A stretch of 64,000 bases of DNA from Gemmatimonadetes bacterium T265 (GTDB taxonomy: Bacteria; Gemmatimonadota; Gemmatimonadetes; Gemmatimonadales; Gemmatimonadaceae): positions 2,802,342-2,866,341 of the forward strand of contig BPUI01000001.1 in assembly GCA_019973575.1 (NCBI GenBank), given 5' to 3'. The notes beneath the pieces were generated by a model. It searched no databases. It saw nothing but the letters and a program-made list of their open reading frames with translations, and was not told the DNA's origin. The stretch's first letter is position 1; each line of letters begins with the position of its first letter. The position numbers were made by a program, and so were the translations under genes. Positions 25,532-52,695 of the stretch are shown in pieces.

Positions 25532-25925
25532 ACTGACGCGAATTGAACGACTCAGATCGGATTCGTTGCGAGTTCGATGGGTCGCGGTAGTTCGGGCCTG
25601 GTCGCAGCTCTATTGCGTGACGGAAGATTCATACGTAGCGTGTGCCCCGGATCACCGAGCACGGACGAGCCCGGCTAGCCGTGTAGGGTGCGCGCCGCGT
25701 CCCCCGTCGCGTCCGGCGCGCTCCGCCCCGCGGCGTCCGAAGGTCCCCCGGTCACGCGACATTTCAAGCGCGACTGGCCAGCGATCATACCTACGGCTCA
25801 CGGCGGCACGCGCCGAGTACGGTGCGCGGTGTCGGTCGCCATTCGTTCAGGGAGGGGCGTATGCCGTCCGGCCGCTTGTGCTCCGATCGACCCGGCGACG
25901 CCCGCTGTTCCAACGGGGAACGTCG
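25532..25925. promoter_or_regulatory. 394-bp leader region of the exopolysaccharide locus, no gene seen
   Basis: An open frame crosses this stretch in frame with the sugar transferase, but its codons lack the third-position GC bias of real genes here and the translation has no family features. Base composition is visibly lower in GC than the flanks in its first 150 bp. It most likely carries the main promoter of the polysaccharide genes; I cannot point to a convincing -35/-10 pair. Confidence 0.4.
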
Positions 25926-27554
25926 GTGAGCGGCTTGCGCCCGACGACGTCCGACGTTCCGCTCGACGGCGTGTTGGCCGCCGTGTCCGGTGACGCGCGC
26001 GCGCCCGACACGCAGTTCGCCCCCCAGCCGACGCATGAGCGGCGTCACCGGCCGACGACGTCCCCACTCGTTGGCGCTGACGAGGCGCCGAGCGGCGTGG
26101 GGCGCGGGTGGGGAGCCGCCGGGGCCGCCGCCTGGATCGCGCCGTGGACACCCGGGGGAGATGCGCTCGTCGTCGTCGCCGCGCTCGCCGCCGCGGTGCT
26201 CCTGCTCCACTCGCCGCCGTTTCCACGCGACATCGCCGAGTTCCTCGCGATGCGCGTGACGATGCGCAACACGTTGACCGTCGCGTTCGTCGTTGCGTGG
26301 GCGACGACCGTGCTGAGTCTCGTCGGCGCGTACGACCTCACGCGGGCGGCCGACGCGCGCGAACTGCTCGCGAACACCGTCGCCGGATGCGCCGTGGCCG
26401 CGCTGCCGGTGCTCCTGCTGGTGCCCGACCACGGCCGGTGGCCGGCCGTCGCGCCGGGCCTCCTCTTCCTCGTCGGCGCGACGGCGGGTGTCCTGGCGTG
26501 TCGCGGCGCGACGTACGTGGCGCGCCGTCTCCACCGGCCCGAGGTGCGCGTGGTCATCGCGGGGACGGGACCGCGGGCCCGCGCGCTCTGGGCACAGCTG
26601 CGCGCCGACCCCACGGTGACGTACCGGCTGCTCGCCGTAGCCGACACGCCGGACGCGCTCGTCGCGCAGCAGGAGTTCCCCCGTGCGTTCTCCGACCGGG
26701 CAGGCAGCGTGCCGGGCGTGGCGGTGGGCCGGTTCGACGAATACCTCATGCACGCGGTGGTCGACGAGGTGTTCGTCGCGCTGCCGCACCGCTCGCACTT
26801 CAGCGAGGTGCACGAGGTCCTTCGGTGCTGCGAGCGCGCGGGCATCCGTGCGCACCACCTCGCCGACGCGTTCGCGCCGGTCATCGCGCGACCGCGCGTG
26901 AGCAGTTCGGGGCGCTTCCCGGCCGTGAGCCTCGACGTAACGCCCGACGAGTCGCGCCTCGTGCTGAAACGGGTGGTCGACGTGCTCGGCGCGCTGGCCG
27001 GGCTCGTACTGCTCTCCCCGCTGCTGCTGGCCATCGCCGCGGCGGTGTGGGTGACGAGCCCCGGGCCGGTGCTCTTCGCCCAGGAGCGCTACGGCTACCG
27101 CAAGCGGCGCTTCCGCATGCTCAAGTTCCGCACGATGGTCGCCGACGCCGAGCAGCGCCAGGCGGCGCTGGAGGGGCAGAACGAGGCGCGCGGCCCGGTG
27201 TTCAAAATCGCCCAGGACCCGCGCGTGACGCGCGTGGGCGCGCTGCTGCGCCGCACCTCGCTCGACGAGCTGCCGCAGCTCTGGAACGTGCTGCGGGGCG
27301 ACATGTCGCTCGTCGGCCCGCGGCCGCTGCCGGTGCGCGACGTCCAGCGCTTCGACGCGCCCTGGCTCATGCGCCGCTTCAGCGTGCGCCCGGGGCTCAC
27401 GTGCCTCTGGCAGGTGAGCGGCCGCAGCGACGTCGGGTTCGACGAGTGGGTCGCGCTCGACCTGCGCTACATCGACGAGTGGTCGTTCGGGCTCGACTGC
27501 CGCATCCTGCTCCAGACCGTCCCGGCGGTGCTGAGCGGGCGCGGCGCCCGGTAG
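25926..27554 (+). CDS. Undecaprenyl-phosphate sugar-1-phosphate transferase (priming enzyme, WbaP/WcaJ type)
   Basis: 542 residues from GTG with GGGGA upstream. Helices near 65-180 lead to a nucleotide-binding-like CoA_binding_3 domain (about 200-330: VVIAGTGPRARALWAQL). The bacterial sugar transferase domain begins with a membrane segment at KRVVDVLGALAGL (about 347) and includes FRMLKFRTMVADAE, RRTSLDELPQLWNVL, GDMSLVGPRPLPVRD and RPGLTCLWQVSGRS, the full catalytic set. It attaches the first sugar phosphate to the lipid carrier at the inner membrane and is the first gene of the exopolysaccharide run. Confidence 0.9.
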   Translation: MSGLRPTTSDVPLDGVLAAVSGDARAPDTQFAPQPTHERRHRPTTSPLVGADEAPSGVGRGWGAAGAAAWIAPWTPGGDALVVVAALAAAVLLLHSPPFPRDIAEFLAMRVTMRNTLTVAFVVAWATTVLSLVGAYDLTRAADARELLANTVAGCAVAALPVLLLVPDHGRWPAVAPGLLFLVGATAGVLACRGATYVARRLHRPEVRVVIAGTGPRARALWAQLRADPTVTYRLLAVADTPDALVAQQEFPRAFSDRAGSVPGVAVGRFDEYLMHAVVDEVFVALPHRSHFSEVHEVLRCCERAGIRAHHLADAFAPVIARPRVSSSGRFPAVSLDVTPDESRLVLKRVVDVLGALAGLVLLSPLLLAIAAAVWVTSPGPVLFAQERYGYRKRRFRMLKFRTMVADAEQRQAALEGQNEARGPVFKIAQDPRVTRVGALLRRTSLDELPQLWNVLRGDMSLVGPRPLPVRDVQRFDAPWLMRRFSVRPGLTCLWQVSGRSDVGFDEWVALDLRYIDEWSFGLDCRILLQTVPAVLSGRGAR

Positions 27555-27571: not shown

Positions 27572-29386
27572 ATGTCGGACATCGCGCCACGCACGAGCAG
27601 CCCGCCCGACGCGCGCGTCGGGGTGGGGGCGTACGTCCCGCCCGCGCCGGGCGCCCCGCCCGCGGGTACGCGACCGGCGGGGCGCGCGACGCACCTGCTG
27701 ACCTTCGCCCTCGAAGAGTACTTCAACAACTTCGACCGGCTCATCGACCGCGCGCACTGGTCGCGCTTCGAGCGCCGCGTCGAGCACGGCACGACGCGCG
27801 TGCTCGACCTGCTCGACGCCCACCGCCAGCGCGCGACGTTCTTCTGCGTCGGCTGGGTGGCCGAGCACCTCCCGGACCTCGTCGGCGAGATCGCGCGGCG
27901 GGGGCACGAGGTCGCGAGCAAGGGCTACGCGCAGCAGCCGCTCGCCGCGCTCACGCCGGGCGCGTTCCGCGACGACCTCGCCCGCGCGCGCGACGTCATC
28001 GAACGCGTGACGGGCACGCGCGTGCTCGGCTACCGCGCTCCCGGCTGGCTCGGGCCCGAGGACCTCTGGGCGCTCGACGTGCTCGCCGCGGAGAGCTACG
28101 CCTACGACTCGAGTCTCAAGCCGTTCCTGCGGCACCCGCACGGCGGCGCGGCGGCGGGCGTCCCGCGGCGGCTGGAGCGCCCGGCCGGCGCGATCTGGGA
28201 GCTGCCGGTGTCGGCGGTCCGCGTCGGCGCGTGGCACCTGCCGGTCGGGGCGGGCAACTACTCGCGCCAACTGCCGCGCTGGCTGATGCGGCGCGTCCTC
28301 CACCGGTGGGACCGCACGCACCAGGCGCCCTTCGTGATGTACTTCCACGCCTGGGAGTTCGACGCGGCGCAGCCCCAGATCAGCGCCGCGCCGTGGCTCG
28401 ACCGCATGCGATTCTACCGCAACCTCGACAAGACCCCGGACATCCTGGCCGACTACCTCGCGCGCTTCCGCTTCACGGGCGCAGCGGAGTACCTCGGGAT
28501 CTCGCCGCTGCCGCCTGCGCCGCAGGCGACGCCCGCGCCCGGCGCCGGCGCAACGGTGGCCCTCGCACACCCGGCGCCCGCACCGCCCGTCGGCGTATCG
28601 CTCGTGGTGCCGTGCTACAACGAAGAGCGCACGCTGGCCTACCTCGCCAACACGCTCGACAGCGTGCGCGCGTCGCTCGCCGGGCGCTACGCGCTCGAGG
28701 TCGTCTTCGTCGACGACGGCAGCACCGACGAAACGGCCGCGGCGCTCGCCCGGCACTTCGGCGCGCGCGCGGACTGCCGCGTCGTCCGCCACGCCGTCAA
28801 CCGCGGCGTCGGGCAGGCGATCCTCACCGGCGCGGCCCGCGCGCGGTACGACGTCGTCGCCTCGATCGACTGCGACTGCACCTACGACCCGCACGAGCTG
28901 GTGCGCATGCTCCCGCTGCTCACCGACGGCGTCGACGTCGTGACGGGCTCGCCCTACCACCCGGACGGCGGCGTGCGGAACGTGCCGCGCTGGCGGCTCG
29001 GGCTCTCGCGCTCCGCTTCGGCGTGCTACCGACGCGTGCTGCGCCAACAGCTCCGTACCTACACGAGCTGCTTCCGCGTCTACCGCCGCACCGCGCTCGA
29101 GGGGCTCACGCTCGCGCATGGCGGCTTCCTCGGCGTCGCGGAGACGCTCGGCCGGCTCGACCTCGCGGGCGCGCGCATCGTCGAGTTCCCGACCACGCTA
29201 CACGTGCGCGTGCTCGGCCGCTCGAAGATGAAAGTCGTCCGCACCGTCGGTGGCCACGTCGTCCTCCTCGCCCAACTGGCCGCACTCCGCGCTCGCGACG
29301 CACTCGCGGCGCGGCGGACCGCGCCGCGGCGCGGCGCGCCGGCCGCCCCTTCGCCCGCGCTCACGCGCGACTTCCCGAGCAGGTGA
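27572..29386 (+). CDS. Fusion: degenerate XrtA-type polysaccharide deacetylase plus family 2 glycosyltransferase
   Basis: 604 residues. Residues 41-310 follow the XrtA/PEP-CTERM-associated NodB deacetylases (RATFFCVGWVAEHLP, YRAPGWLGPEDLWALDVL, YFHAWEFDAAQP), but the catalytic DVED is ALEE (46-49) and both zinc-binding His of ASHGYxH are replaced (Lys117, Gln121). Arg155 and His259 remain. It is probably not an active deacetylase. A Pro/Ala linker (312-340) joins a GT-A domain: VVPCYNEERT (345-), VFVDDGSTDET, and DCD in SIDCDCTYDP near 435, like DPM1-type transferases. So the working part is likely the transferase, the N-terminus binding polymer. Confidence 0.8.
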   Translation: MSDIAPRTSSPPDARVGVGAYVPPAPGAPPAGTRPAGRATHLLTFALEEYFNNFDRLIDRAHWSRFERRVEHGTTRVLDLLDAHRQRATFFCVGWVAEHLPDLVGEIARRGHEVASKGYAQQPLAALTPGAFRDDLARARDVIERVTGTRVLGYRAPGWLGPEDLWALDVLAAESYAYDSSLKPFLRHPHGGAAAGVPRRLERPAGAIWELPVSAVRVGAWHLPVGAGNYSRQLPRWLMRRVLHRWDRTHQAPFVMYFHAWEFDAAQPQISAAPWLDRMRFYRNLDKTPDILADYLARFRFTGAAEYLGISPLPPAPQATPAPGAGATVALAHPAPAPPVGVSLVVPCYNEERTLAYLANTLDSVRASLAGRYALEVVFVDDGSTDETAAALARHFGARADCRVVRHAVNRGVGQAILTGAARARYDVVASIDCDCTYDPHELVRMLPLLTDGVDVVTGSPYHPDGGVRNVPRWRLGLSRSASACYRRVLRQQLRTYTSCFRVYRRTALEGLTLAHGGFLGVAETLGRLDLAGARIVEFPTTLHVRVLGRSKMKVVRTVGGHVVLLAQLAALRARDALAARRTAPRRGAPAAPSPALTRDFPSR

Positions 29387-29387
29387 G

Positions 29388-30170
29388 ATGATGTCCTCGA
29401 TTCGGCGTCCCGCCGAGCCGTCCGTCGCGTGTGGCGCGTCCCGCCGGCGCGCCGGGCAGCTCGCACGACGGACACGCGGCGCGTTCTTCGCGGCGATGCT
29501 CGCCGTCGGAGCGGCGGGCGGTGCGACGGCCGAGGCGCAATCGTCGGTCGCGCAGTCGCCAACCACGCAGTCCGCCACGGCGCCATCCCCGGCCGCCGAT
29601 TCGTCGCGGACGAGCGACGCCGCGCGGCGGGCGGGCCTGCGGCCGGTGCAGCTCCGGCCGGGCGACGTGGTCAAGCTGTACGTCTGGCGCGAGCCGGAGA
29701 TGTCGCGCGACTACGAAGTCAACGGTGACGGCGCGATCGACCTCCCGAAGCTCGGCCTCGTGACGGTCGCCGACGTCTCGCCCGACTCCCTGCGCCGGGC
29801 CCTCGAGGTCCGTTACGCCCGCTACCTGCGCACGCCGACGGTCGAGGTCTCGATGCGCCGGCGCATCAGCGTACTCGGCTCCGTGCGCAACCCGGGCGTC
29901 TACCAAGTCGATCCGTACGTCAGCGTCGCGGACGCGCTCGCGCTCGCTGGCGGCGTGACGCCCGAGGCGCGCACCGACGAGGTGCGCGTGCTGCGCGGCG
30001 ATCAGACGCTGCGCACGCGCGTGTCCACGCGCACGATCATCGCCGACTCGCCCGTCCAGTCGGGCGACCAGCTGTACGTCCCGGACCGCGGCTGGGTGAG
30101 CCGGAACCTCACGCTCATCAGCGCGGCGGTGTCCGCGGTCGGCATCCTCGTGTTCGCGCTCAACCGTTAG
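29388..30170 (+). CDS. Wza-type polysaccharide export protein (Poly_export plus SLBB)
   Basis: 260 residues; starts MM right after the previous stop with AGGTGA as ribosome site. A signal peptide ends about AEAQS. The Poly_export domain begins LRPGDVVKLYVWREPE (about 86) and runs to VEVSMRRR; an SLBB domain follows (SVLGSVRNPGVYQVDPYVSVADALALAGG). A final helix (LISAAVSAVGILVFALNR) closes the protein. It would form or contact the outer-membrane channel. The stop codon TAG lies inside GTTAGGC. No lipobox cysteine is seen, unlike E. coli Wza. Confidence 0.85.
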   Translation: MMSSIRRPAEPSVACGASRRRAGQLARRTRGAFFAAMLAVGAAGGATAEAQSSVAQSPTTQSATAPSPAADSSRTSDAARRAGLRPVQLRPGDVVKLYVWREPEMSRDYEVNGDGAIDLPKLGLVTVADVSPDSLRRALEVRYARYLRTPTVEVSMRRRISVLGSVRNPGVYQVDPYVSVADALALAGGVTPEARTDEVRVLRGDQTLRTRVSTRTIIADSPVQSGDQLYVPDRGWVSRNLTLISAAVSAVGILVFALNR

Positions 30171-30183
30171 GCATCGCCGCCCC

Positions 30184-32610
30184 ATGTCGCTCTCCCTCCG
30201 CCCCGCGCCCGCGCCGCCCGCGCTCGAGCCGACGGCCGCCGCGCCCGCCGCGTTCGGCCGCGACGCGACGTCCGAGCCGCCGCCCCGCCGGATCGCCGCC
30301 TGGGGCGCGGTGCGACGCCACCTGTGGCTCGTGCTCGGCGCCGGCGCCCTCGCCGCGACCGGTGCGGCCGTGGCGGAGCGGTTCGTCAACCCGGTCTACG
30401 AGTCGGTCGCGTCGGTGCGCGTGCAGCCCAAGGACGCCCATCTCCCCGGCGTCTACCAGCCGGCGGTGACGGGCGTCGAGGTGGGGAACGAGCTCGACCT
30501 GCTCCACAGCCGCACGCTCGCCGAGGACGTCGTCGACGCCCTCGCCCTGCGCGTGCGCGTGCTCGCGCCGCGCCCGGCGCGGGCCGGACTGCTCGGCCCC
30601 GTGCGCGCCTCGCGGAGCGCCGACACGGGCACGTTCACGTTCGAGCGCGGCCGCGACGGGTTCGTCGTCACCACCGGGCGCCCGAGCCGACGCGTCGCCG
30701 TCGCGACCCCGGGGCGGGCGGTCGAGCTGGCCGGCACGACGCTCGTGCTCGCCCCCGCCGCGGCGGCCGAGCCGCGCGTCACGGTGCGGGTCGACGGCTT
30801 TGACGCCGCGGTCGCCGCGCTCGGCGAGGCAATGACGGTCGAACGCGCGGGCCGCGAGTCGCAGGTCATCACCGTGCGATACCGGAGTTCGGACCCGGCG
30901 CTCGCGCGCGACGTCCCGAACGCCGCGGTCGGCGGCTTCCTCGCCATGCGCCGCCGCGGCCAGCAGCTCGAGACGAGCGGCACCGCCGACGCGCTCCGCG
31001 AGCAGGTGCGCACGGTCGGCGCGGAGCTCGCGCAGGCCGACGCGACCCTGCGCGCGTTCCGCGAGCGCCAGCGCGTCGTGAACCCGCACGAGGAGGGGAC
31101 GACCGAGATCGCGCGACTCGCGCAGCTGCGGACGGAGCGGCTGCAGGTCGGCTCCGAGCGCGACGCCCTCACCGCCGTCATGCACACGCTGGGCGAGCGC
31201 ACCCGCAACCCGGACGCCGGCGAACTCCCATTCCGGCAGCTCGGCGGATTCCCGACGCTCACGCGCAACGAGGCGTTCTCGTCATACGTGCGCGCGCTCA
31301 CGGCGGTCGAGGACCAGCGCGCCGCCCTGCTCATGCGCCGCACGCCAGAGGATCCGGAAGTCCTGGTGCTGACCGACCGCGCGCGCGCCCTCGAAGGGCA
31401 ATTGCGCGCGACCGCGACCACGTACCTCGACGGCCTGACACGCCAGACGGCCGACATCGACGCGGAGCTCGCGCGCTCCGAGGCGCAGCTCTCGCGCCTT
31501 CCAGGGCAGGAAGCCGAGTACGCCCGGCTCGAGCGCGGGCCGAAGGTGCTCGGCGAGATGCTGACGCTCCTCCAGACGCGGCTCAAGGAGGCCGAGGTCG
31601 CGGAGGCGATCACCGACCCCTCGGTCCAGCGCCTCGACGTCGCCCCGCTGCCGTCGCGTCCGCTCCGACCGCGCCCGGCCCACGATATCCCGCTCGCGGC
31701 GTGCGCCGGACTGCTCGTCGGCCTCGCCGGCGTGTTCGCGCGCGAGCGGCTCGACCGGACGGTGCGCACGCGCGACGACGTCCGCCGCTGGACCGGCCTC
31801 CCCGTGATCGGCGTCATTCCGCACGCGCCGCCGGGTGCGGGCCCGGGGTGGCGCGAGTCGACACCGCGGCCGACCGCCCGCGCGCGCGCCCTGCTCCCGG
31901 GTGCGGGCGCGCGGCGCGTCCGCGAAACGAGCGGGCTGATGCTCGCCGAGGCGTTCGCCCGGCTGCACGCGACCGTCGCCGTGTCGCGTCCGGGCGGCGA
32001 GTTGCTCACGATCGTCGTCACGAGCCCGCTCTCGGGCGAGGGGAAGACGACGACCGCCGGCTACTTCGCGGCCGCGGTCGCGCGCGCGGGGTCGCGCACG
32101 CTGCTGGTCGACGCCGACCTGCGGCGCGGCACGCTGCACACGCGCTTCGGCCTCCCGCGCGCGCCGGGGCTCGCCGAGGTGCTCGCGGGCGAGGCGACGC
32201 TGGAGGACGTCACGCACGCGGTGGACGTCGGCGACGGGGCGACGTTGGCCGTCGTGTGCGCCGGCGGGGCGGCCGACCCGGCGCGACGCCTCCTCACGGC
32301 GGCGCGGGCGCGCGAGGTGCTCGCGTCGGCCGCCGCGCGCTTCGACAGCGTGATCGTCGACGCGTCGCCGATCAACGTCACGGCGGACGCCGCGGTGCTC
32401 GCGTCGGAGGCCGACGGCGTGCTGCTCGTCGCGCGCGCGGGCCAGACGTCGCTCGACGCCCTCGCGTACGCCGCGCAGCAGCTCGGGCAGGCGCGGACGA
32501 CCCTGCTCGGCGTCGTGATGAACGACATCGACCCCGTGCGGGACGCCGCCTACGACGCGGAGTACCGCTTCTACCACGACCCGTACTTCCAGCCGTCCGG
32601 CGCGGCCTGA
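30184..32610 (+). CDS. Wzc-type chain-length regulator and tyrosine autokinase
   Basis: 808 residues. An N-terminal Wzz region has membrane helices near 48-66 and 503-520 with a long coiled periplasmic part between (RTVGAELAQADATLRAF, RTPEDPEVLVL). The cytoplasmic BY-kinase holds Walker A SPLSGEGKTTT (about 615-625), Walker A' LLVDADLRR and Walker B VIVDASP (about 723). The C-terminal tyrosine cluster YDAEYRFYHDPYF has four tyrosines for autophosphorylation. With the export protein 13 bp upstream it makes the usual Wza-Wzc pair of Wzy-dependent polymer export. Confidence 0.9.
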   Translation: MSLSLRPAPAPPALEPTAAAPAAFGRDATSEPPPRRIAAWGAVRRHLWLVLGAGALAATGAAVAERFVNPVYESVASVRVQPKDAHLPGVYQPAVTGVEVGNELDLLHSRTLAEDVVDALALRVRVLAPRPARAGLLGPVRASRSADTGTFTFERGRDGFVVTTGRPSRRVAVATPGRAVELAGTTLVLAPAAAAEPRVTVRVDGFDAAVAALGEAMTVERAGRESQVITVRYRSSDPALARDVPNAAVGGFLAMRRRGQQLETSGTADALREQVRTVGAELAQADATLRAFRERQRVVNPHEEGTTEIARLAQLRTERLQVGSERDALTAVMHTLGERTRNPDAGELPFRQLGGFPTLTRNEAFSSYVRALTAVEDQRAALLMRRTPEDPEVLVLTDRARALEGQLRATATTYLDGLTRQTADIDAELARSEAQLSRLPGQEAEYARLERGPKVLGEMLTLLQTRLKEAEVAEAITDPSVQRLDVAPLPSRPLRPRPAHDIPLAACAGLLVGLAGVFARERLDRTVRTRDDVRRWTGLPVIGVIPHAPPGAGPGWRESTPRPTARARALLPGAGARRVRETSGLMLAEAFARLHATVAVSRPGGELLTIVVTSPLSGEGKTTTAGYFAAAVARAGSRTLLVDADLRRGTLHTRFGLPRAPGLAEVLAGEATLEDVTHAVDVGDGATLAVVCAGGAADPARRLLTAARAREVLASAAARFDSVIVDASPINVTADAAVLASEADGVLLVARAGQTSLDALAYAAQQLGQARTTLLGVVMNDIDPVRDAAYDAEYRFYHDPYFQPSGAA

Positions 32611-43381: not shown

Positions 43382-43822
43382 GGGCGGTGCTGCCGAGCGT
43401 GCGGCGAGGGTGGTGAGGGGCGTGACGAGCGCACCCGTGGAACCAGCGGAGGCTGGTCCGGCGGAGCGCCGAGCTAAGAGGCGTGCCGGTGTGTCGGCGG
43501 GAACTGAATCCACGCCGTCCGGCCTGATATCGAGCTGTACGGGGCCGGCACACATCGCCGACCGACCCGCGACGTGAGAGGTAACCGTCTCGGAATCCCG
43601 AGCGGTGACGCGTCTCACTTAGGACGCATGTTTGCGCACGCCGCATGTAGCAGACGCGACGTAGGTCACATCGGCACGCGCCGACGACGCGGCGCCGCGT
43701 TCCGGCGCGTCGCTGGTGGCGCCGGCGGCGAGCACGGGTATAATCACGCCGGCCCTTCACCGGCCGGTCGCGGGCGCGGAACGCCCACGCGCGCGACGGC
43801 CAGGACGCTCTTCGAGGCACCC
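43382..43822. promoter_or_regulatory. 441-bp divergent promoter region, no gene seen
   Basis: This stretch separates the divergently read lectin gene and the membrane transferase gene. Open frames cross it, but they lack gene-like codon use and family features. The only conspicuous element is TATAAT at 43739-43744. Confidence 0.45.
43739..43744 (+). promoter_or_regulatory. Candidate -10 box TATAAT
   Basis: A perfect consensus hexamer in DNA where AT-rich words are rare, 79 bp upstream of the GTG at 43823. No convincing -35 lies 16-18 bases upstream. Confidence 0.35.
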
Positions 43823-45478
43823 GTGACGCTCGCCGCCCGACGCTCCGCCGCCTCCACGTCGGGCGCGCTCCGAGACCACTGGCCCGGCGAGGAGCGGCTG
43901 CTCGGCGTCGCCTTGATTGCACACGTGGCGGTCGCGCTCGGCCTCCGGCACTTCCCGTATCAGGACGTGCCTAACCACCTCGCCCGCTACACCCTGATCG
44001 CGCGCGCGTGGGCGGGCACGGCGCCGGCGTGGATCGACGTGCACCTGCAGCCGACGAGTTACGTGGCGCTCGACCTGCTCGGGGCGGCGCTCGTCGCGAC
44101 CGTGGGGGCGCTCGCGACCGAGCGCGTCTTCGCATTGATCGCCGCCGTCGCACTGCCGGTCGGCATGTACCTGCTGCTGCGCGCGGTCGCGCCGGCGCAG
44201 CGGGGGTGGGCGATCGTAGGCGTACTGCTCAGCTTTTCGGCGTTCTTCCTGAGCGGGTTCCTGAACTACGTGACGGGGATCGGCTGCGCGTTCGTCTGGC
44301 TTGCCGTGTGGTGGCCGCGCCGGCGCACGACGGCGTGGTCGACGCGGGGGGGGCTGGCACTCGGCCTCGTCGCCCTCTTCATCCTGCACCTCTCGGCGCC
44401 GCTCGTTGCGCTCTTCGTAGTCGGCCTCGACCTCGTGTGGACGTCGGGCCGCTCCTGGTCTCCCGCCGGCACGGCCCGCGAGAGTGGCGTGGCCCCGCGC
44501 GCTACGGGCCTCGCCGCGGCGCGCCCACAACTCGCGACGCTCGGCGTGTGCGTGGCCGTCCTCGGGGCCGTGTGGGGGACGGTCGCGATCGTCGGCTCCG
44601 CCAGTATCCCGCCCATCCTCGATCCCGTGCCGGTCGTGCCGGATCCGGCGATCCTGTTCCGGACGCCGACCAGCAAACTCCTCGCGCTCGCGACGCCGTT
44701 CTACTCGCTCTCGATTCCTGAACTTCTGCTGATGACGGCGGCGTATGGCACGGCGCTGGTCCTCTACCTGGCGCGTCAGGGTCGCGAGACGTTCACGCAC
44801 CCGCTCACCGTCGCCGCGCTCGGGTTTCTCGCGCTGTACGTCGCGTGGCCGATGACGATCGGCGCCGTGCGTGCGGTCGACGCGCGCTGGCTCCTCCCCG
44901 CGTACCTCCTCCTCTTCTGTGGCGCCGCCCGGCCGGAGCGCGCGCCGAGCGCAGGCGTGCTCGTCGCGGTGACGACCCTCGTTGTACTGCACGCGGGACT
45001 CGTGTGGCAGATCGGCCGCCGGATCGACCGCGACCTCGACGCCTTCGACCGCGTGCTCGCGCGCGTCCCGCCGGGCGCGCGCGTCCTGCCGCTCGTCACC
45101 GCCGTGGCGCGGTACGGGCCGCGCGTTTCGCCGTACCGGCATTACGCGATGTGGCACCTCGTCCGCACCGGCGGGCGCGTGGCCGGGCTGTTCGCGGCGA
45201 ACGGGCTCTTCGACGACGGCTACCCGTACACGCACATGGCCCACGTGCGCGAGCGCGCCCGGGTCTACTACCCGAACGAGGACTGGGGCGTCCGCGTCTT
45301 CACCGCGCTGCCCTGGCCGCGCATTCGTCGCGACTTCGACTATATCGTACAGGCGGGCGACGACGACGCGCGCGTGCGCGCCGCCATCGCCCCGTACGCA
45401 CGCCCGGTGTTCCGCGACGGCGACGTCACCGCATACGCCGTGGGGTCCGGCGGTGCGGCGGCCCTCCCCGCCCGATGA
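43823..45478 (+). CDS. Multi-pass membrane glycosyltransferase-like protein (GT-C fold)
   Basis: 551 residues from GTG; an upstream open extension lacks gene-like composition. About ten helices, with the first luminal loop carrying an Asp-containing YQDVPNHLARY (about 48-58), similar to the acidic loop motif of GT-C mannosyltransferases. The C-terminal 130 residues are soluble (RVLPLVTAVARYGPRVS, YPNEDWGVRVF). GT-C enzymes use polyprenyl-phosphate sugars on the periplasmic side. It may decorate the polymer. Its stop overlaps the WecB start (ATGA). Confidence 0.65.
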   Translation: MTLAARRSAASTSGALRDHWPGEERLLGVALIAHVAVALGLRHFPYQDVPNHLARYTLIARAWAGTAPAWIDVHLQPTSYVALDLLGAALVATVGALATERVFALIAAVALPVGMYLLLRAVAPAQRGWAIVGVLLSFSAFFLSGFLNYVTGIGCAFVWLAVWWPRRRTTAWSTRGGLALGLVALFILHLSAPLVALFVVGLDLVWTSGRSWSPAGTARESGVAPRATGLAAARPQLATLGVCVAVLGAVWGTVAIVGSASIPPILDPVPVVPDPAILFRTPTSKLLALATPFYSLSIPELLLMTAAYGTALVLYLARQGRETFTHPLTVAALGFLALYVAWPMTIGAVRAVDARWLLPAYLLLFCGAARPERAPSAGVLVAVTTLVVLHAGLVWQIGRRIDRDLDAFDRVLARVPPGARVLPLVTAVARYGPRVSPYRHYAMWHLVRTGGRVAGLFAANGLFDDGYPYTHMAHVRERARVYYPNEDWGVRVFTALPWPRIRRDFDYIVQAGDDDARVRAAIAPYARPVFRDGDVTAYAVGSGGAAALPAR

Positions 45479-46587
45479 GCGACGCCGTCATGAGACCGTC
45501 AGCACTCCCGCCGCTCGCGCTCCTGTACGGCACGCGCCCGCAGGTCATCAAGGCGTCGGTGCTCGCGGCCGCGCTCGCGCCGCACTGGGACGTGCTAACG
45601 GTCGACACGGGGCAGCACTACGACTACGCCCTCAACGCCCTCCTTTACGCGCAACTCGGCGTGCGCCCGCCCGACGTCTGCCTCGACGTCGGCTCCGGCG
45701 ACCAGGCGACACAGACCGCGCACGTACTCACACGCGCTGCGGAGGTGCTCTCGGGACGCGGCGCGCGACGGCCGTGCGCCGCCGTCGTCATCGGAGACAC
45801 GAACAGCACGCTTGGCTGCGCGCTCGCCGCGGCGAAGCTGCGCATCCCGGTCGTGCACGTCGAGGCGGGCCTGCGCTGCCACGACCCGCTCATGGCCGAG
45901 GAGATCAACCGCCGCGCGGTGGACGCGATCAGCGCAGTGCTGTGCGCGCCGTCGGACGCCGCCGCGGCGCGGCTGCGCACCGAAGGCGCGCCGGGCGTGG
46001 TACGCCGGACTGGCGACGTCGCGCGCGACGCGTTGCTGCGGGCACTGCCGCGCGCCGCCGCGGCGTCCGACGCCGGTGGTTGGCCGCTCGCAGCCGGGGC
46101 GCCGTTCGTCTTCGCGACGCTACACCGCGCCGAGTTGGTCGACGACGAGGCGCGACTCGCGGCGGCCGTCGACCAGCTCGGCCGACTGCCGCTGCCCGTG
46201 GTCTTCGCCGCGCACCCGCGTACGCGCGCGGCGCTCGCGGCGGCGGGCGTCGCGCCGCCGGCCGGCGTGCATCTCATCCCACCGCTGGGCTACCTCGAAG
46301 CAATCGCGGCCGTACGCGACGCGGCCGCGGTGGTCACCGACTCCGGCGGCCTCCAACGCGAGGCATACTGGCTCGGCGTCCCGTGCGTCACCGTGCGGGC
46401 CGAAACCGAATGGGAAGAAACCGTCGCGCTCGGCGCAAACCGACTGCTCGCGGTCGACCGCGTCGCCGAATTGCCCGCCGCGGTAGCGGCCGCGGTGGCT
46501 GGCGGGGCCGGGTCGTGGGACCGTGATGCCTATGGCGACGGCAGCGCGGCGGCGCAGGTCGTCGACGCGGTCGCCGGCCTGCGCTGA
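45475..46587 (+). CDS. wecB: UDP-N-acetylglucosamine 2-epimerase (non-hydrolysing)
   Basis: 370 residues. GTRPQVIKASVL near the start is the family opener with Gln where Glu is usual. Then GDTNSTLGCALAAAKLRIPV, VHVEAGLRCHDPLMAEEINRR, TLHRAE and DSGGLQREAYWLGVPCVTVR follow in order. It converts UDP-GlcNAc to UDP-ManNAc, the donor for WecG/TagA-type transferases such as the one at 33787. The Glu-to-Gln change at the first motif could lower or alter activity and is worth a structural check. It closes a two-gene unit with the GT-C protein. Confidence 0.85.
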   Translation: MSDAVMRPSALPPLALLYGTRPQVIKASVLAAALAPHWDVLTVDTGQHYDYALNALLYAQLGVRPPDVCLDVGSGDQATQTAHVLTRAAEVLSGRGARRPCAAVVIGDTNSTLGCALAAAKLRIPVVHVEAGLRCHDPLMAEEINRRAVDAISAVLCAPSDAAAARLRTEGAPGVVRRTGDVARDALLRALPRAAAASDAGGWPLAAGAPFVFATLHRAELVDDEARLAAAVDQLGRLPLPVVFAAHPRTRAALAAAGVAPPAGVHLIPPLGYLEAIAAVRDAAAVVTDSGGLQREAYWLGVPCVTVRAETEWEETVALGANRLLAVDRVAELPAAVAAAVAGGAGSWDRDAYGDGSAAAQVVDAVAGLR

Positions 46588-46925
46588 CGCGAGCCCCGGG
46601 GGCGGCCGTACGCTTGCTGCAACAGTTCTGCTGCGGCGTTCCGGTCGTCGTAGCACTCCGGACGGCGTACGCGGCGTGGCGCTTTCGGGGCGATGGCGGG
46701 CTTGAGGTCGTCGCGCGATCCCAACCAGTATTGCGGGAATGACAAGTCCGTCATAGCGTGTGCTCAGCATCACGGCGCGAGGGATTTCCGCACTCACCCG
46801 GTGACGCGTGATACGGCGTTCCTGCCCTCAATTCGGTGCGAAGCGGCCCCCCGACCGGTGGGTGCCGCACCCCACCTCCGACCGCGAGAGCGATGTCGAC
46901 TGCGGCCCATGAGGTAGGGATTGTC
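46588..46925. promoter_or_regulatory. 338-bp intergenic region, no gene seen
   Basis: Likely promoter region for the FAD oxidoreductase run. It contains a small inverted repeat ATGAC(6)GTCAT at 46739-46754 that could be an operator. AT content is raised around 46720-46800. No open frame with gene-like codon use. Confidence 0.4.
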
Positions 46926-48377
46926 ATGCCGCCCCCCATAGCGGGGGAGCGCCGGTCGCCCGCGATCCCTGCTCCGATCACGCCAGTCACGGCGGCGCCT
47001 TACACCGCCTACCCGACTCGCCGTCGCGGCGCGCGGCACGTCGGCGTGGTCGGGGGCGGCATGCTCGGCCTCACGCTCGCGCTCCGGCTCCGGCAGCAGG
47101 GGCACGAGGTGACCGTGCTCGAGGCCGCGGCGGACGTCGGCGGACTCGCCGCCTCGCAGACGCTCGCCGGCTGGGCCTGCGACCGCTTCTACCACGTCGT
47201 CCTCCCGGCCGACACGGCGCTCCAAGCACTCCTCGCCGAACTCGGCGTCGCCGACCGGCTGCGCTGGCGGACGACGCGCACCGGGTTCTACACCGACGGG
47301 CGCCTGGTTTCGATGTCGAGCGCGCTCGACTTCCTCGCCTTCCCGCCGCTGGGTCCGGTCGACAAGCTGCGGCTCGGCTACACGGTGCTGCACGCCGCGC
47401 GCGTCCGCGACTGGCGGCGCCTCGAAGCGATCCCCGTGGCCGACTGGCTGCGCCGCCTCTCCGGGCGTCGCACGTTCGAGCGGATCTGGCTGCCGCTGCT
47501 GCGCAGCAAGCTCGGCGAGAACTACCGCGAGACGAGCGCGACGTTCATCTGGGCGACGATCGCGCGGCTGTACGGCGCGCGCCACACCGGCGCGAAGCGC
47601 GAACGCTTCGGCTGGATCGAGGGCGGCTACGCCGGCGTGCTCGCGCGCTATGGCGAACACCTCGCCGCCCTCGGGGTCAACGTGCGGTGCGGCGCGCGCG
47701 TCGTCGAGGTGTGCGACCGCGGCCGAGAAGGTGAGGCCAGCGACAGGGCCGCCGTCGACGTCCGGCTCGGCTCTGGCGAGCGGCTCGCGTTCGACGCGGT
47801 CGCGCTCACGCTGCCGACCGGGCGGATTGCCGCGCTCGCGCCGCAGCTCGGCGAGGCCGAGCGGACGCGGCTCGCCGGCGTGACGTACCAGGGGATCGTG
47901 TGCGTGGCGGCGCTGCTGCGCCGCCCGCCGGCGGGCGGCTACTACGTCACGAACATCACCGACGCGGGGCTGCCGTTCACGGCCGTGATCGACATGACCG
48001 CGCTCGTCGACTCGGCGGGCGTCGGCGGGCACGCGCTCGTCTACCTGCCGCGCTACGCGGCACAGGACGACCCGATCTGGGACGTGCCGGACGCGGAGGT
48101 CGCGTCGCGCTTCCTGGCCGGCCTAACGCGCGTGCACCCGCACCTCGGGCCCGCGGACGTACTCAACGTGCGCGTCTCGCGCGCGCGCGAAGTGCTCGCG
48201 CTCACCACGCTCCACTACTCGGAGCGGTGGCTGCCGCCCGTGCGCACGTCGCTGCCGGGCGTGTTCGTGGTGACCTCGGCCCAGATCGCCGCGGGCACGC
48301 TCAACGTGAACGAGACGCTGCACGTGGCGGACGCCGGCGCGGCGGCGGTCGGGCAGGCGTTAGGCGTCGCATGCTGA
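46926..48377 (+). CDS. NAD(P)/FAD-dependent amine-oxidase-type oxidoreductase
   Basis: 483 residues; ATG at 46926 is preferred over 46893 because GAGGTAGGG precedes it by 6 bases. After a Pro-rich leader the dinucleotide-binding motif GVVGGGMLGLTLALRL (about 38-53) and VLEAAADVGGLAAS follow. The mid-part LWLPLLRSKLGENY and IEGGYAGVLARYGEHL resemble protoporphyrinogen oxidase/HpnE-type flavoproteins that recur in polysaccharide loci next to NodB deacetylases, as here. Substrate unknown. It overlaps the deacetylase by 7 bp. Confidence 0.75.
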   Translation: MPPPIAGERRSPAIPAPITPVTAAPYTAYPTRRRGARHVGVVGGGMLGLTLALRLRQQGHEVTVLEAAADVGGLAASQTLAGWACDRFYHVVLPADTALQALLAELGVADRLRWRTTRTGFYTDGRLVSMSSALDFLAFPPLGPVDKLRLGYTVLHAARVRDWRRLEAIPVADWLRRLSGRRTFERIWLPLLRSKLGENYRETSATFIWATIARLYGARHTGAKRERFGWIEGGYAGVLARYGEHLAALGVNVRCGARVVEVCDRGREGEASDRAAVDVRLGSGERLAFDAVALTLPTGRIAALAPQLGEAERTRLAGVTYQGIVCVAALLRRPPAGGYYVTNITDAGLPFTAVIDMTALVDSAGVGGHALVYLPRYAAQDDPIWDVPDAEVASRFLAGLTRVHPHLGPADVLNVRVSRAREVLALTTLHYSERWLPPVRTSLPGVFVVTSAQIAAGTLNVNETLHVADAGAAAVGQALGVAC

Positions 48378-49420
48378 CCGACGCGCGCCCGGTCGCGAGC
48401 GTCTCGCTCGACGTCGACGACCTCTGGACGTACCTGCGCACGCACGGCGACCCGGCGTGGGAGCGGCGCCCGTCGTACCTCGCGGCGTTCGTCCCCGCGG
48501 TGCTCGACGCGCTCGACGAGGCCGGGGCGACGATCACCTTCTTCCTCGTCGGCGAGGACGCGGCGCGCGACGCGGACGCCGGGCGCCTGCGCGCGCTGGC
48601 CGAGCGCGGGCACGAGATCGCGAACCACACCTTCGGCCACGACGTCTGGATGCAGGCGTACGGCGAGGCCGCGGCGGACGAGGAGATCGCCCGGGCCGAG
48701 GCGGCGATCGAGGCGGCGACGGGGCGGCGGCCGGCGGGCTTCCGCGGGCCGGGGTTCAGCTGGGGGCCGCCGCTCCTGCGCGTCCTCGCCCGGCGCGGCT
48801 ACCGGTACGACGCGTCGACGCTCCCGACCTTCGTCGGCCCGCTCGCGCGGCGCTACTTCCTCGCGACCGCGCGGCTCACCCCCGCGGAGCGCGCGGAGCG
48901 CGCGGCACTGTTCGGGTCGTTCGGCGACGGGCTCCGCCCCAACCGCCCGTACCGGTGGGCGTTAGGCAACGGCCTCGAGCTGCTCGAGCTGCCCGTGACG
49001 ACGGTGCCCGGCGCGCGCACGCCGTTCCACCTCAGCTATCTGATGTACCTCGCCGGGTATTCCGAGCGGGTCATGTTCGGCTACCTGCGCGGGGCGCTCG
49101 CGCTCTGCCGCGCCACCGGCACGGAGCCGAGCTTCCTGCTGCACCCGCTCGATCTGTTAGGCGCCGGCGAGGCGCCGGGGCTCGAGTTCTTCCCCGGCAT
49201 GGCGCTCGGCGCCGCGCGCAAGCGCCGGCTCTTCGTGCGCGTGCTGCGCGTGCTCGGCGAACACTTCGCCCTCGTCCCGATGGCCGCGCACGCCGAGCGT
49301 GCGGGCCGCGGGCCGCTCCCCCGCCGCGCGCCGGACCGCGAGTCCGGCGGCCGGCCGCCCTCCGTCGCGCCCGCCCCCCTGGCGCCCGCCCCCCACCAGA
49401 AGCCCTCCCATGCGTCGTGA
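48371..49420 (+). CDS. NodB-type polysaccharide deacetylase, catalytic residues intact
   Basis: 349 residues. Catalytic Asp pair in SLDVDDLW (about 12-19), zinc His pair in HEIANHTFGHD (about 80-90) and Arg in GFRGPGFSW (about 120) are all present, in contrast to the degenerate deacetylase of the fusion at 27572. No signal peptide, so the enzyme probably acts on lipid-linked or nucleotide-linked sugars in the cytoplasm, removing N-acetyl groups. The last 60 residues are Pro/Arg-rich and disordered. Overlaps at both ends (7 and 11 bp) place it in one transcript with its neighbours. Confidence 0.8.
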   Translation: MLTDARPVASVSLDVDDLWTYLRTHGDPAWERRPSYLAAFVPAVLDALDEAGATITFFLVGEDAARDADAGRLRALAERGHEIANHTFGHDVWMQAYGEAAADEEIARAEAAIEAATGRRPAGFRGPGFSWGPPLLRVLARRGYRYDASTLPTFVGPLARRYFLATARLTPAERAERAALFGSFGDGLRPNRPYRWALGNGLELLELPVTTVPGARTPFHLSYLMYLAGYSERVMFGYLRGALALCRATGTEPSFLLHPLDLLGAGEAPGLEFFPGMALGAARKRRLFVRVLRVLGEHFALVPMAAHAERAGRGPLPRRAPDRESGGRPPSVAPAPLAPAPHQKPSHAS

Positions 49421-50429
49421 GCCGTACAAAGCCCTCGTGATCGGCGCCGCCGGGAACATCGGGACGCGTCTCGTCGCCCACCTGCGCGCGGTCGGCCACG
49501 ACGTCGTCGAGGCCGACATCAAACCCGGGCTGCGCGAGGGCTACGTCGTGGCCGACATCACCCAGCCCGTCGACTTGCTCCCCGCCTTCGACTGGGGGCC
49601 GGACGTCGTCTTCCACCTCGCGGCGGCCGTCGGGCGCACGACGTGCGAACAGGCCGGCGCGCTCGCGGTCTCGACGAACCTCATGGGGCTCGGGAACGTG
49701 CTGCAGCTCTGCCGCCGCGCGCGCGCCACGTGCGTGTACTTCTCGACGTCGGAAGTGTACGGGCCGAGCGACACCGTCCACGACGACGCGGCGTCGCGCC
49801 CGCACCCCAACAACCGCTACGGACTGTCCAAGTACCTCGGCGAACAGCTCGTCGAATACGAGGTGCGGCACACCGGGCTGCGCGCGGTCACGGTCCGCCC
49901 GTGCATGATCTACGACGAGCGGGAGACCGTCGGCGAGCACCGGTCGGCGATGATTCGGTTCGCGTCCAACCTCGCGCGCGGGCGCCGCGTCACGGTGCAC
50001 GCCGGCAGCGCGCGCGGCTGGCTGCACGCGACCGACGCCGCGCGCGCGATCGAGGCCGCGGGGTACGTGCGCGAGTACGCGACGATCAACCTCGGGCACC
50101 CCGACGTCGTCCCGATGCAGCAGCTCGCCGCGATGATGTGCGCCGAGCTCGGCGCGGACCCGGGGCTCGTGACGGTGGAGTCTCTGCCCCCGCGCATGAC
50201 GCTCGTGAAGCGCCCGACGCTGGAGCGGCAGCGCGCGCTGTTAGGCTTCGAGCCGGCGGTCTCGCTCGCCGAGGGGGTCCGGCGGGTGTGCGCCGTGCAG
50301 GCGTGGGCGGCGGCGCGCGACCGCGCCGCCGCGGACGGCGGGCCGCGCGTGGTCGACGCGGCCGAAGCGGCCTACCCCGGGTCGCCGACCGCGGCCCGTC
50401 CTGCCGCGGCCGCCTCGGGCTTTGCCTAA
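49410..50429 (+). CDS. NAD-dependent sugar epimerase/dehydratase (extended SDR)
   Basis: 339 residues. Rossmann GAAGNIGTRL (about 11-20), VFHLAAAVGRTTCEQ, catalytic Ser/Thr in FSTSEVYGPS (about 111-120) and YGLSK (about 137-141). This is the GalE/RmlB-like extended SDR group that epimerises or dehydrates nucleotide sugars. The exact sugar cannot be told from the sequence. TAA stop lies in a GCCTAAC word. It belongs to the exopolysaccharide locus by position and overlap. Confidence 0.8.
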   Translation: MRREPYKALVIGAAGNIGTRLVAHLRAVGHDVVEADIKPGLREGYVVADITQPVDLLPAFDWGPDVVFHLAAAVGRTTCEQAGALAVSTNLMGLGNVLQLCRRARATCVYFSTSEVYGPSDTVHDDAASRPHPNNRYGLSKYLGEQLVEYEVRHTGLRAVTVRPCMIYDERETVGEHRSAMIRFASNLARGRRVTVHAGSARGWLHATDAARAIEAAGYVREYATINLGHPDVVPMQQLAAMMCAELGADPGLVTVESLPPRMTLVKRPTLERQRALLGFEPAVSLAEGVRRVCAVQAWAAARDRAAADGGPRVVDAAEAAYPGSPTAARPAAAASGFA

Positions 50430-50449
50430 CTCGCGTCGGGCCGTCTGAC

Positions 50450-51319
50450 GTGGACACGGCCGCCTGCAGCACCGCCGTCCGCGGCGCGGTCGCGAGCATC
50501 CAGCCCGCGAGCCTCGTGGACGCGCGCGCGCCGGACGCGCCCCGACCGGACGCGCCCGCGCCGGGCACGCTCGTGCCCGCGACGTGTGCGTTCTGCGGCG
50601 ACGACGACGGCGTGCCGGTGGCGGTCGGGACGAACTTCGCCGACCCGGCCGACGCGGCGAGTTACCTCGTGCTGCGATGTCGGCGCTGCCACTTGTTCTA
50701 CCTCAACCCGCGACCCGCGCCCGGCCGCGTCCGGGACGGCGGCGCGGCCGCGGCGGAGCGCGTGCGCGGCTGGCTGCGGACCCGGCCGCGCGAACTCCCG
50801 CCGGGCGGAGATGTGCTCGCGATGGACGGCGCTGCGGGGGCCGCCGCGGCCGGCGCGTACGACGTCGCGCTGTTCGCCGGGACACTCGAGCGGTACGACG
50901 ACCCGATCACCGCGCTCGTGCACGCGCGCATGGCACTGCGGTCCGGAGGTCGCGTCGTCGTGATCGCGGCCAACGCCGGCGGCGCGGCGGCCCGCCTGTT
51001 CGCCGGCCGACACTGGGCCGGCTACGACTTTCCGCACGGGCGTTTCTTTTTCGACGCGCGCACGCTGCGCGCCGCCGCGAGCCGCGCAGGGCTCGCCGTC
51101 GAGCGCCTCGTCGTGCGGTACGACGGGCGGTGCTGGGCGGGCTCGCTGGAGTACCTGCTGGCCGACGTGGGCGGCCCGCCACATCCCGCCGACCGCGTGC
51201 GTGCGACCCACCCCGCCGCCCGCGCCGCCCTGCGCGCGCTCGGCGCGGCGCTCGACGCCGCGGCCACCCTTGTGGGCCGCGGCGCGCGGCTCGAGGCGAC
51301 GCTCCGCCCCAGCGTCTGA
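50450..51319 (+). CDS. Methyltransferase-like protein with zinc ribbon but no SAM motif
   Basis: 289 residues from GTG. Residues about 45-85 form a CxxC...CxxC zinc ribbon (CAFCGDD and CRRCHLFYLNPRP), the normal N-terminus of a group of sugar-related methyltransferases. Then PPGGDVLAMDGAAGAAAAGAYDVALF jumps to the late part of the fold (LERYDDPITALVHARMALRSGG), with the glycine-rich SAM loop and about 50-60 residues missing. The C-terminal half (WAGYDFPHGRFFF) is retained. It looks like an internal deletion that leaves a non-catalytic or binding-only protein. Confidence 0.6.
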   Translation: MDTAACSTAVRGAVASIQPASLVDARAPDAPRPDAPAPGTLVPATCAFCGDDDGVPVAVGTNFADPADAASYLVLRCRRCHLFYLNPRPAPGRVRDGGAAAAERVRGWLRTRPRELPPGGDVLAMDGAAGAAAAGAYDVALFAGTLERYDDPITALVHARMALRSGGRVVVIAANAGGAAARLFAGRHWAGYDFPHGRFFFDARTLRAAASRAGLAVERLVVRYDGRCWAGSLEYLLADVGGPPHPADRVRATHPAARAALRALGAALDAAATLVGRGARLEATLRPSV

Positions 51320-51324
51320 CGCGC

Positions 51325-52695
51325 ATGCCCGCATCCGCGGCCCACACCCTGCCCATTGCCGTCGTCGGGGCCGGCATCGGCGGGCTCGTGGCCGCGCGCG
51401 CCCTGCGCCGCCGAGGGCTGCCGGTCGCCGTGTTCGAGGCCGGGCGGCGCGTCGCGGGGATGGCGACGAGCTTCCAAGACCCGGACGGGTTCACGTACGA
51501 CTTCGGCGCGCACTTCATCACCAACCGGCTCGCCGCCGCACTCGGCGTCGGCGACCGCTGCCGCGACGTGCGCCACTACGGCGAGACCGTGTTCGTGCGC
51601 GGGCGGAGCTATGGATACCCGTTCGGACTGCTCCGCGCCCCGCGGTACGTCGCAAGCGCGGCCGCCGCGCGGGCGGATCCGCGCACGCGCGCGGCCGGCG
51701 CGGCCTCCGCGGCCGATTGGTACCGCGCCACCTACGGTCGGGCGGTCGCCGACGAGATCGCCATTCCGCTGGTCGAGGCCTGGTCCGGCGCGTCCGCCGA
51801 CGACCTCGCGCCGTCGGTCATCGCGCCGCAGCTCGAACGCGGCATCGCGCACGTGGCCCGGCTCAAGCTCGCGTCGCGCGTGTTCGGGCGCGCCGTCGCG
51901 AACGGGTACTCGCGCGAGATGCCCGAACGGGCGCACGTCTGGCACGTCTACCCCGACGGCGGCGTGGCCGTGCTCTGCGACGCGATCGCGCGCGAGCTCC
52001 CCGACGCCGTCCACCTCGAATCGCCGGTCGAGGCGATCTACGTCGACGACGGCCGCGCCGCGGGCGTCCGGGTGGGCGGGCGCGACGTCGGCGTGCGGGC
52101 GGTGGTCAGCACCGCCCCTGTCCACGTGCTCGCCAAACTCGTGCGTGGGACCGACGCGTTCGCGCACCTGGCGCGCTTCCGCTACCGCCCGATGACCTTC
52201 GTCAACCTTCGCTTCGAAGGGCGCGGCCTGCTGCCCGACGTGGTCACGTGGACGCCGGAATCGCGCTTCCCATTCTTCCGACTGACGGAGGCGCCGACGT
52301 CGATGCCGTGGCTCGCGCCCGCGGGCATGACGATGATCACGGCGGACATCGGCTGCGAGGTCGGCGACGCGACGTGGACGGCCCCGGACGACGCGCTCGG
52401 CGACCAGTGCGTCGAAGCGCTGCTCCCCATCGTGCCCGACGCGCGCCGGCGCTACCGCGGTTGCCGCGTACTCCGCACGCCGGTCGCCTACCCGGTGTTC
52501 CTCCGCGCGTACGAGGCGGACCGCGTCGCGCACGCGCGCGACGCGGCCGTGCGCGGCCTGTACAACGTGGGCCGCAACGCGGAGTTCTCCCACATTCTCA
52601 TGGAAGACATCTACTGGCGGACGCTCGCCAAGATGCACGCGCTCGCCGCGGCGCACGGCCCGCACGCCCGCCCCGACCCGAGGACGCCGACATGA
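51325..52695 (+). CDS. FAD-dependent NAD(P)-binding oxidoreductase (protoporphyrinogen oxidase/UGM-like)
   Basis: 456 residues. FAD-binding GAGIGGLVAARALRRRG (about 14-30) and the second loop GMATSFQDPDGFTYDFGAHF (about 45-64), which is the layout of UDP-galactopyranose mutase and protoporphyrinogen oxidase relatives. C-terminal FAD contact in GLYNVGRNAEFSHILMED (about 412-429). Such flavoproteins in sugar clusters can isomerise or oxidise nucleotide sugars; which applies is open. Start codon four bases after the previous gene; 4-bp ATGA overlap with the next. Confidence 0.75.
   Translation: MPASAAHTLPIAVVGAGIGGLVAARALRRRGLPVAVFEAGRRVAGMATSFQDPDGFTYDFGAHFITNRLAAALGVGDRCRDVRHYGETVFVRGRSYGYPFGLLRAPRYVASAAAARADPRTRAAGAASAADWYRATYGRAVADEIAIPLVEAWSGASADDLAPSVIAPQLERGIAHVARLKLASRVFGRAVANGYSREMPERAHVWHVYPDGGVAVLCDAIARELPDAVHLESPVEAIYVDDGRAAGVRVGGRDVGVRAVVSTAPVHVLAKLVRGTDAFAHLARFRYRPMTFVNLRFEGRGLLPDVVTWTPESRFPFFRLTEAPTSMPWLAPAGMTMITADIGCEVGDATWTAPDDALGDQCVEALLPIVPDARRRYRGCRVLRTPVAYPVFLRAYEADRVAHARDAAVRGLYNVGRNAEFSHILMEDIYWRTLAKMHALAAAHGPHARPDPRTPT

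Follow-up and report, generated by a model that had tools for sequence, protein, structure and literature searches.

The N-terminal NodB domain of a two-domain protein encoded in a polysaccharide cluster appears, from its fold and its lost residues, to be a CE4/NodB pseudoenzyme. It is joined in one chain to a GT2 glycosyltransferase and was found in the window, by which we mean the whole 64,000-nucleotide stretch of Gemmatimonadetes bacterium T265 that was analysed (Table 1). The fused family is old and monophyletic, and its members have lost both the catalytic Asp and the first His of the metal site; the domain is under purifying selection and is not decaying, and its gene occurs together with that of an intact deacetylase.

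Translation of the fused reading frame contains no internal stop. Three Pfam models each exceeded their cut-off: PF01522 (residues 66–158), PF11959/DUF3473 (180–307, 94.7 bits), so that the DUF3473 part is present, and PF00535 (343–510, 112.6 bits). The acidic motifs that the initial annotation had seen in the GT2 half are both in place, DDGS at 381–384 and DCDC at 433–436, and this protein also gave a weak NCBIfam match to the model of mycobacterial polyprenyl-phospho-GalNAc synthase. By sequence, the dead domain is closest to the XrtA deacetylases (TIGR03006 plus DUF3473), which resemble it in fold and over the full length of the match. However, the fused protein lacks the catalytic Asp and a metal His, is joined to a GT2 and reaches only 238.7 bits with TIGR03006 (over 43–304), below the cut-off of 276.2. 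The window contains no exosortase; the sole PF09721 match of the genome lies on contig C2, while the window lies on C1. Another dead fused member (L017, genome G131) scores 276.7 and just passes. TIGR03006 thus lets through at least one dead member, which automatic annotation may label an active deacetylase.

Table 1. Fused gene, its domains and neighbouring features, in window positions
Feature	Position	Strand	Remarks
Polyprenyl glycosylphosphotransferase (TIGR03025)	25566..27554	+	Ends 17 bases upstream of the fused gene
Fused protein, XrtA-type predicted pseudo-deacetylase plus DPM1/ArnC-like GT2 (604 aa)	27572..29386	+	
Predicted pseudo-deacetylase domain, NodB plus DUF3473, residues 40-307	27689..28492	+	Ala46, Glu48, Lys117, Gln121, Arg155, His259
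GT2 domain, residues 340-575	28589..29296	+	DDGS, DCDC and RVLGRSK motifs; C-terminal helix 555-583
Wza-like polysaccharide export protein	29250..30170	+	True start probably near 29388
Wzc-like chain-length determinant/tyrosine autokinase	30184..32610	+	
UDP-GlcNAc 2-epimerase (wecB-like)	45469..46587	+	Near the fused gene in many relatives
FAD amine-oxidoreductase-like protein, PRK07233 family	46836..48377	+	Follows the fused gene in most relatives
Live NodB deacetylase DAC2, partner of the fused gene	48371..49420	+	D14, D16, H86, H90, R125, H258
NAD-dependent epimerase/dehydratase	49413..50429	+	After DAC2 in the window, G227, G218 and G224
Second FAD amine-oxidoreductase-like protein	51316..52695	+	Order as in G227

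In the window protein residues 46–49 read ALEE (46 Ala, 48 Glu and 49 Glu), with Lys at 117 and Gln at 121. Alignment of the fused relatives revealed that Asp46 and His117 are absent from all 38 members whose site is readable, a set that excludes a planctomycete member (L056) ending before residue 158. Position 46 is occupied by Ala (22), Leu (4), Ser (4), Val (3), Gly (3), Asn (1) or Thr (1) and never by Asp, and position 117 by Lys (23), Arg (8), Gln (3), Ala (2), Tyr (1) or Ser (1) and never by His. Glu48 and Arg155 are invariant (38/38 each), His121 is kept in 33 of 38 and His259 in 33 of 39, with Q, P or G at 121 and Q, N or R at 259 in some members; Glu67 is specific to the fused clade. 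Around WELDPDQP and Arg155, conservation is no lower than in live enzymes. Asp46, His117, His121 and His259 are all present in the 14 of 14 standalone relatives taken as intact, and the plasmid-encoded XrtA enzymes have an intact site as well. One standalone XrtA-type gene outside the fused clade (L046, genome G242), left out of that intact set, carries a separate loss (H46 and L117).

These data refine the claim of the initial annotation that ALEE replaces the catalytic DVED: the first Asp is gone, but it is the only residue truly lost, since dead and live members alike always have Glu48, and position 49 varies between D and E among live enzymes also. Its second claim, that Lys117 and Gln121 replace the two zinc histidines, is correct for the window protein, where both residues are read; Lys117 is typical of the clade, but Gln121 is an added loss in the window protein and its sister L005. 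The annotation had raised the question whether a clade shares the losses, and those of Asp46 and His117 are clade-wide. A frame or alignment error at 46–49 and 117–121 was ruled out, as independent homologues carry the same losses.

Because the catalytic Asp and one metal His are missing, the domain is a pseudoenzyme by its residues and presumably performs no catalysis. The fused-clade alignment contained no clade-specific His or Cys as a new metal ligand; that Lys or Arg at 117 stands in for the metal charge beside Glu48 is our guess. Since Glu48 is invariant and His121 and His259 are mostly kept, a weak or altered site is conceivable, and a deacetylase acting feebly through Glu48 and His121 with an alternative base would account for these residues and for Arg155. 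However, no member has the catalytic Asp or the first metal His, the window protein is also without His121, and a live deacetylase is nearly always there, which makes residual activity very unlikely.

Whole-genome searches recovered whole-chain relatives at about 42–57% identity. The fused gene was found in 28 of the 288 genomes of the window's order (29 matches, among which the standalone L046 was not counted) and in one more genome of its class. Fused relatives also occur, among the matches listed, in Acidobacteriota and in proteobacterial and Planctomycetota MAGs, a spread of at least three phyla; the relatives are mostly MAGs. The 38 fused NodB domains form one clade (ultrafast bootstrap 97, SH-aLRT 94), which 99% of the bootstrap trees contain and whose stem measures 0.74 changes per site. 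A member truncated at a contig end (L045, genome G252) nevertheless falls within the clade, in which the window protein has L005 as its sister (97/94). In one member (L014, genome G005) the GT2 motifs are degenerate too (ECDS and FGRTSPR), and both halves are possibly dead.

Among pairs with usable dS, the seven closest gave a dN/dS of 0.02–0.12 for the dead domain, and in six of them the value for the GT2 half was higher; the dead domain reached 0.27 in one distant pair, but dS is close to saturated at such distances and the argument rests on the close pairs. These values already contradict a functionless, decaying relic carried along by the fusion. That the window protein and L005 have additionally lost His121 would fit such decay, but conservation across phyla, a confident fold and invariant residues throughout the domain also oppose it, and we regard it as scarcely credible. 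A one-off pseudogene was ruled out by the clade, the dN/dS values and the fold.

Structure prediction, which had been suggested as a check, gave a confident fold for the full fused chain (AlphaFold2, pLDDT 87.8, pTM 0.80), whose NodB half matches CE4 structures. The NodB half matched 3RXZ (Z 24.2, rmsd 2.9, 241 aligned), HpPgdA (Z 22.9), PuuE (3CL6, Z 21.2), ArnD (Z 20.2) and the pseudoenzyme BA3943 (7BKF, Z 18.8). The GT half matched DPM1 (Z 26.9, rmsd 2.2, 229 aligned), ArnC (Z 23.7) and GtrB (Z 22.6), and its DDGS, DCDC and R..G.SK motifs are conserved. The best structural neighbours of the GT half load sugar onto polyprenyl phosphate. Its fold and motifs therefore suggest a lipid-linked acceptor, a suggestion weakened by the fact that DPM1-like folds include non-lipid enzymes such as glucosyl-3-phosphoglycerate synthase, which is also among the fold matches of this half. 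The single predicted C-terminal helix at 555–583 could anchor the protein.

NodB domains without active-site residues are known from the CE4 pseudoenzymes BA3943 (7BKF) and BA0150 (4M1B) of B. anthracis and from 2VYO of E. cuniculi. Both 4M1B and 2VYO are described as CE4 pseudoenzymes (PMC10967932), 7BKF is BA3943 and 6HM9 its activity-restored mutant according to the PDB titles, and BA0330 and BA0331 were inactive in assays yet bind peptidoglycan (PMC4505593). The sources used describe for these proteins neither a GT fusion nor a link with a live deacetylase within a polysaccharide module, in contrast to the fused family. PuuE allantoinase likewise has a NodB fold without the metal residues, lacking the Asp pair and the second metal His (PMC10967932), and yet it is an active enzyme of purine breakdown without a GT. 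A repurposed domain with a different, metal-independent chemistry of the PuuE type would agree with this precedent, with the match of PuuE to the model, and with the invariant Glu48, the frequent Lys or Arg at 117 and the clade-specific Glu67. Nevertheless, some members carry Q, S, A or Y at 117 and some carry Q, P or G at 121, and no new invariant His or Cys has arisen, so that we consider repurposing unlikely. The same genome encodes a long GH18-like/NodB/GT2 protein (L160, G000:C1:2009519-2010745 region) in which NodB also precedes GT2 in one chain; its NodB site is intact (TFDDGP and NHTYTH) and its GT2 is followed by membrane stretches, so it is a different fusion.

An intact deacetylase 21 kb downstream of the fused gene, pointed out by the initial annotation, is indeed there: DAC2 carries the motifs SLDVDD, NHTFGH, RGPGFS and LLHPLD. 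Its six site residues (Table 1) are invariant in 20 aligned orthologues; the sole departure beside the last motif is HAAD for HPLD in the distant orthologue L054. The DAC2 model (pLDDT 86.5) matched 3RXZ (Z 25.3) and ArnD (Z 21.0); the closest structures of ArnD itself include 3RXZ and 3QBU (PMC10967932).

In genomes the dead domain is usually accompanied by DAC2, and outside the window their genes lie in contiguous runs. At 17 other loci, three of them outside the window's phylum, the fused gene is followed by the FAD oxidoreductase, orthologous to 46836–48377 of the window, and then the live deacetylase, and at three more the latter two lie about 8–10 kb from the fused gene; at other loci examined for order, the contig or locus ends before the module does. 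The window keeps this module, but its first gene, the fused one, stands apart from the other two. In G227 the run continues with an epimerase, a methyltransferase and a second oxidoreductase, matching window positions 49413–52695. Within the polysaccharide cluster, two ricin-lectin plus right-handed beta-helix proteins (39683–41416 and 41693–43618) are encoded on the minus strand, opposing its genes.

Among the 288 genomes of the order, 28 carry the fused gene, 24 the live deacetylase and 23 the oxidoreductase. The fused gene accompanies the deacetylase in 23 genomes (Fisher p 4e-28) and the oxidoreductase in 23 (p 2e-29), although genomes of one order share descent and these p values overstate independence. 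Counted by genus, the fused gene and the live deacetylase occur in 16 and 15 genera and have 14 of these in common (p 1e-12). Put the other way, 23 of the 24 order genomes with the live deacetylase carry the fusion, and the five genomes that have the fused gene but gave no deacetylase match are 68–85% complete. In the 159 genomes at least 90% complete, both genes are confined to the same 15. Among the matches listed, the live deacetylase is present in eight of nine fused genomes outside the window's phylum. Genomes with only the GT2 half have it in two of five cases, once beside a separate GT2 gene, and a rule that such genomes always lack it was dropped. DAC2 occurs without the fusion in G097, G465 and G466, so it is not strictly dependent on the dead domain. 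In Desmonostoc vinosum (L180, G465:C74:37203-39095), a DAC2 orthologue adjoins a separate GT2 gene and there is no dead domain. Four unfused GT2-half relatives (L057, L058, L060 and L061), from cyanobacteria, Chloroflexota and Verrucomicrobia, lie near a UDP-GlcNAc 2-epimerase and/or the FAD oxidoreductase.

The initial annotation proposed that the dead deacetylase may have been retained to bind polysaccharide or to regulate, and purifying selection bears out the retention, while either role stays conjectural. Pseudoenzymes often serve active paralogues as scaffold or regulator. The dead domain might accordingly bind no sugar but dock the live deacetylase, the oxidoreductase or both, or regulate the GT2 allosterically. 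Close linkage and co-occurrence with the two partners, and the further drift of the site in several members at 121 and 259, are what such a role would lead one to expect, but the undiminished conservation around WELDPDQP and Arg155 suggests that the cleft still matters. We give this scaffold role a lesser though appreciable chance.

The explanation that we find best, and somewhat probable, is modelled on ArnC and ArnD, the Und-P-Ara4FN transferase and deformylase. In this pair, a GT2 with the fold of the GT half and a hydrolase with the NodB fold act in sequence on an Und-P-linked acylated amino sugar (PMC12650200), and a GT2 and a live NodB-fold hydrolase are likewise encoded together in the fused-gene genomes. 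The fused GT2 differs from ArnC in carrying a dead NodB domain and in having one C-terminal helix in place of ArnC's membrane part. By this analogy, the GT2 half would work at the membrane, taking an N-acylated amino sugar from its nucleotide donor and loading it onto polyprenyl phosphate or onto a lipid-linked glycan. The UDP-GlcNAc 2-epimerase encoded near many of the fused genes may point to an N-acetylated amino sugar, for example ManNAc. The dead NodB half would bind this sugar in the former substrate cleft without hydrolysing it; that it holds or presents the sugar is suggested by the conserved Arg155 and WELDPDQP regions in a domain whose chemistry is gone. The live deacetylase of the module would then deacylate the GT product, as ArnD does after ArnC.

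More tentatively, and with rather less confidence, the dead deacetylase–GT2, the FAD oxidoreductase and the live deacetylase may form a three-protein module in several phyla, in which a built-in sugar holder passes the acylated amino sugar to the live deacetylase, yielding a modified amino sugar for polysaccharides. Our literature search, which left most subscription journals outside its range, found no paper on DUF3473, on a dead XrtA-type deacetylase–GT2 fusion or on the module, a polysaccharide module that is defined here. CE4 pseudoenzymes and NodB–GT2 fusions with an intact site were already known. The present family is a clear example from nature of an enzyme domain whose catalysis was lost while selection continued to act on it, and which came to be linked with a functioning relative; this combination makes a role of a CE4 pseudoenzyme testable. 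Kept in at least three phyla, the dead domain probably serves to hold the sugar or to pass it on, not to cut it.
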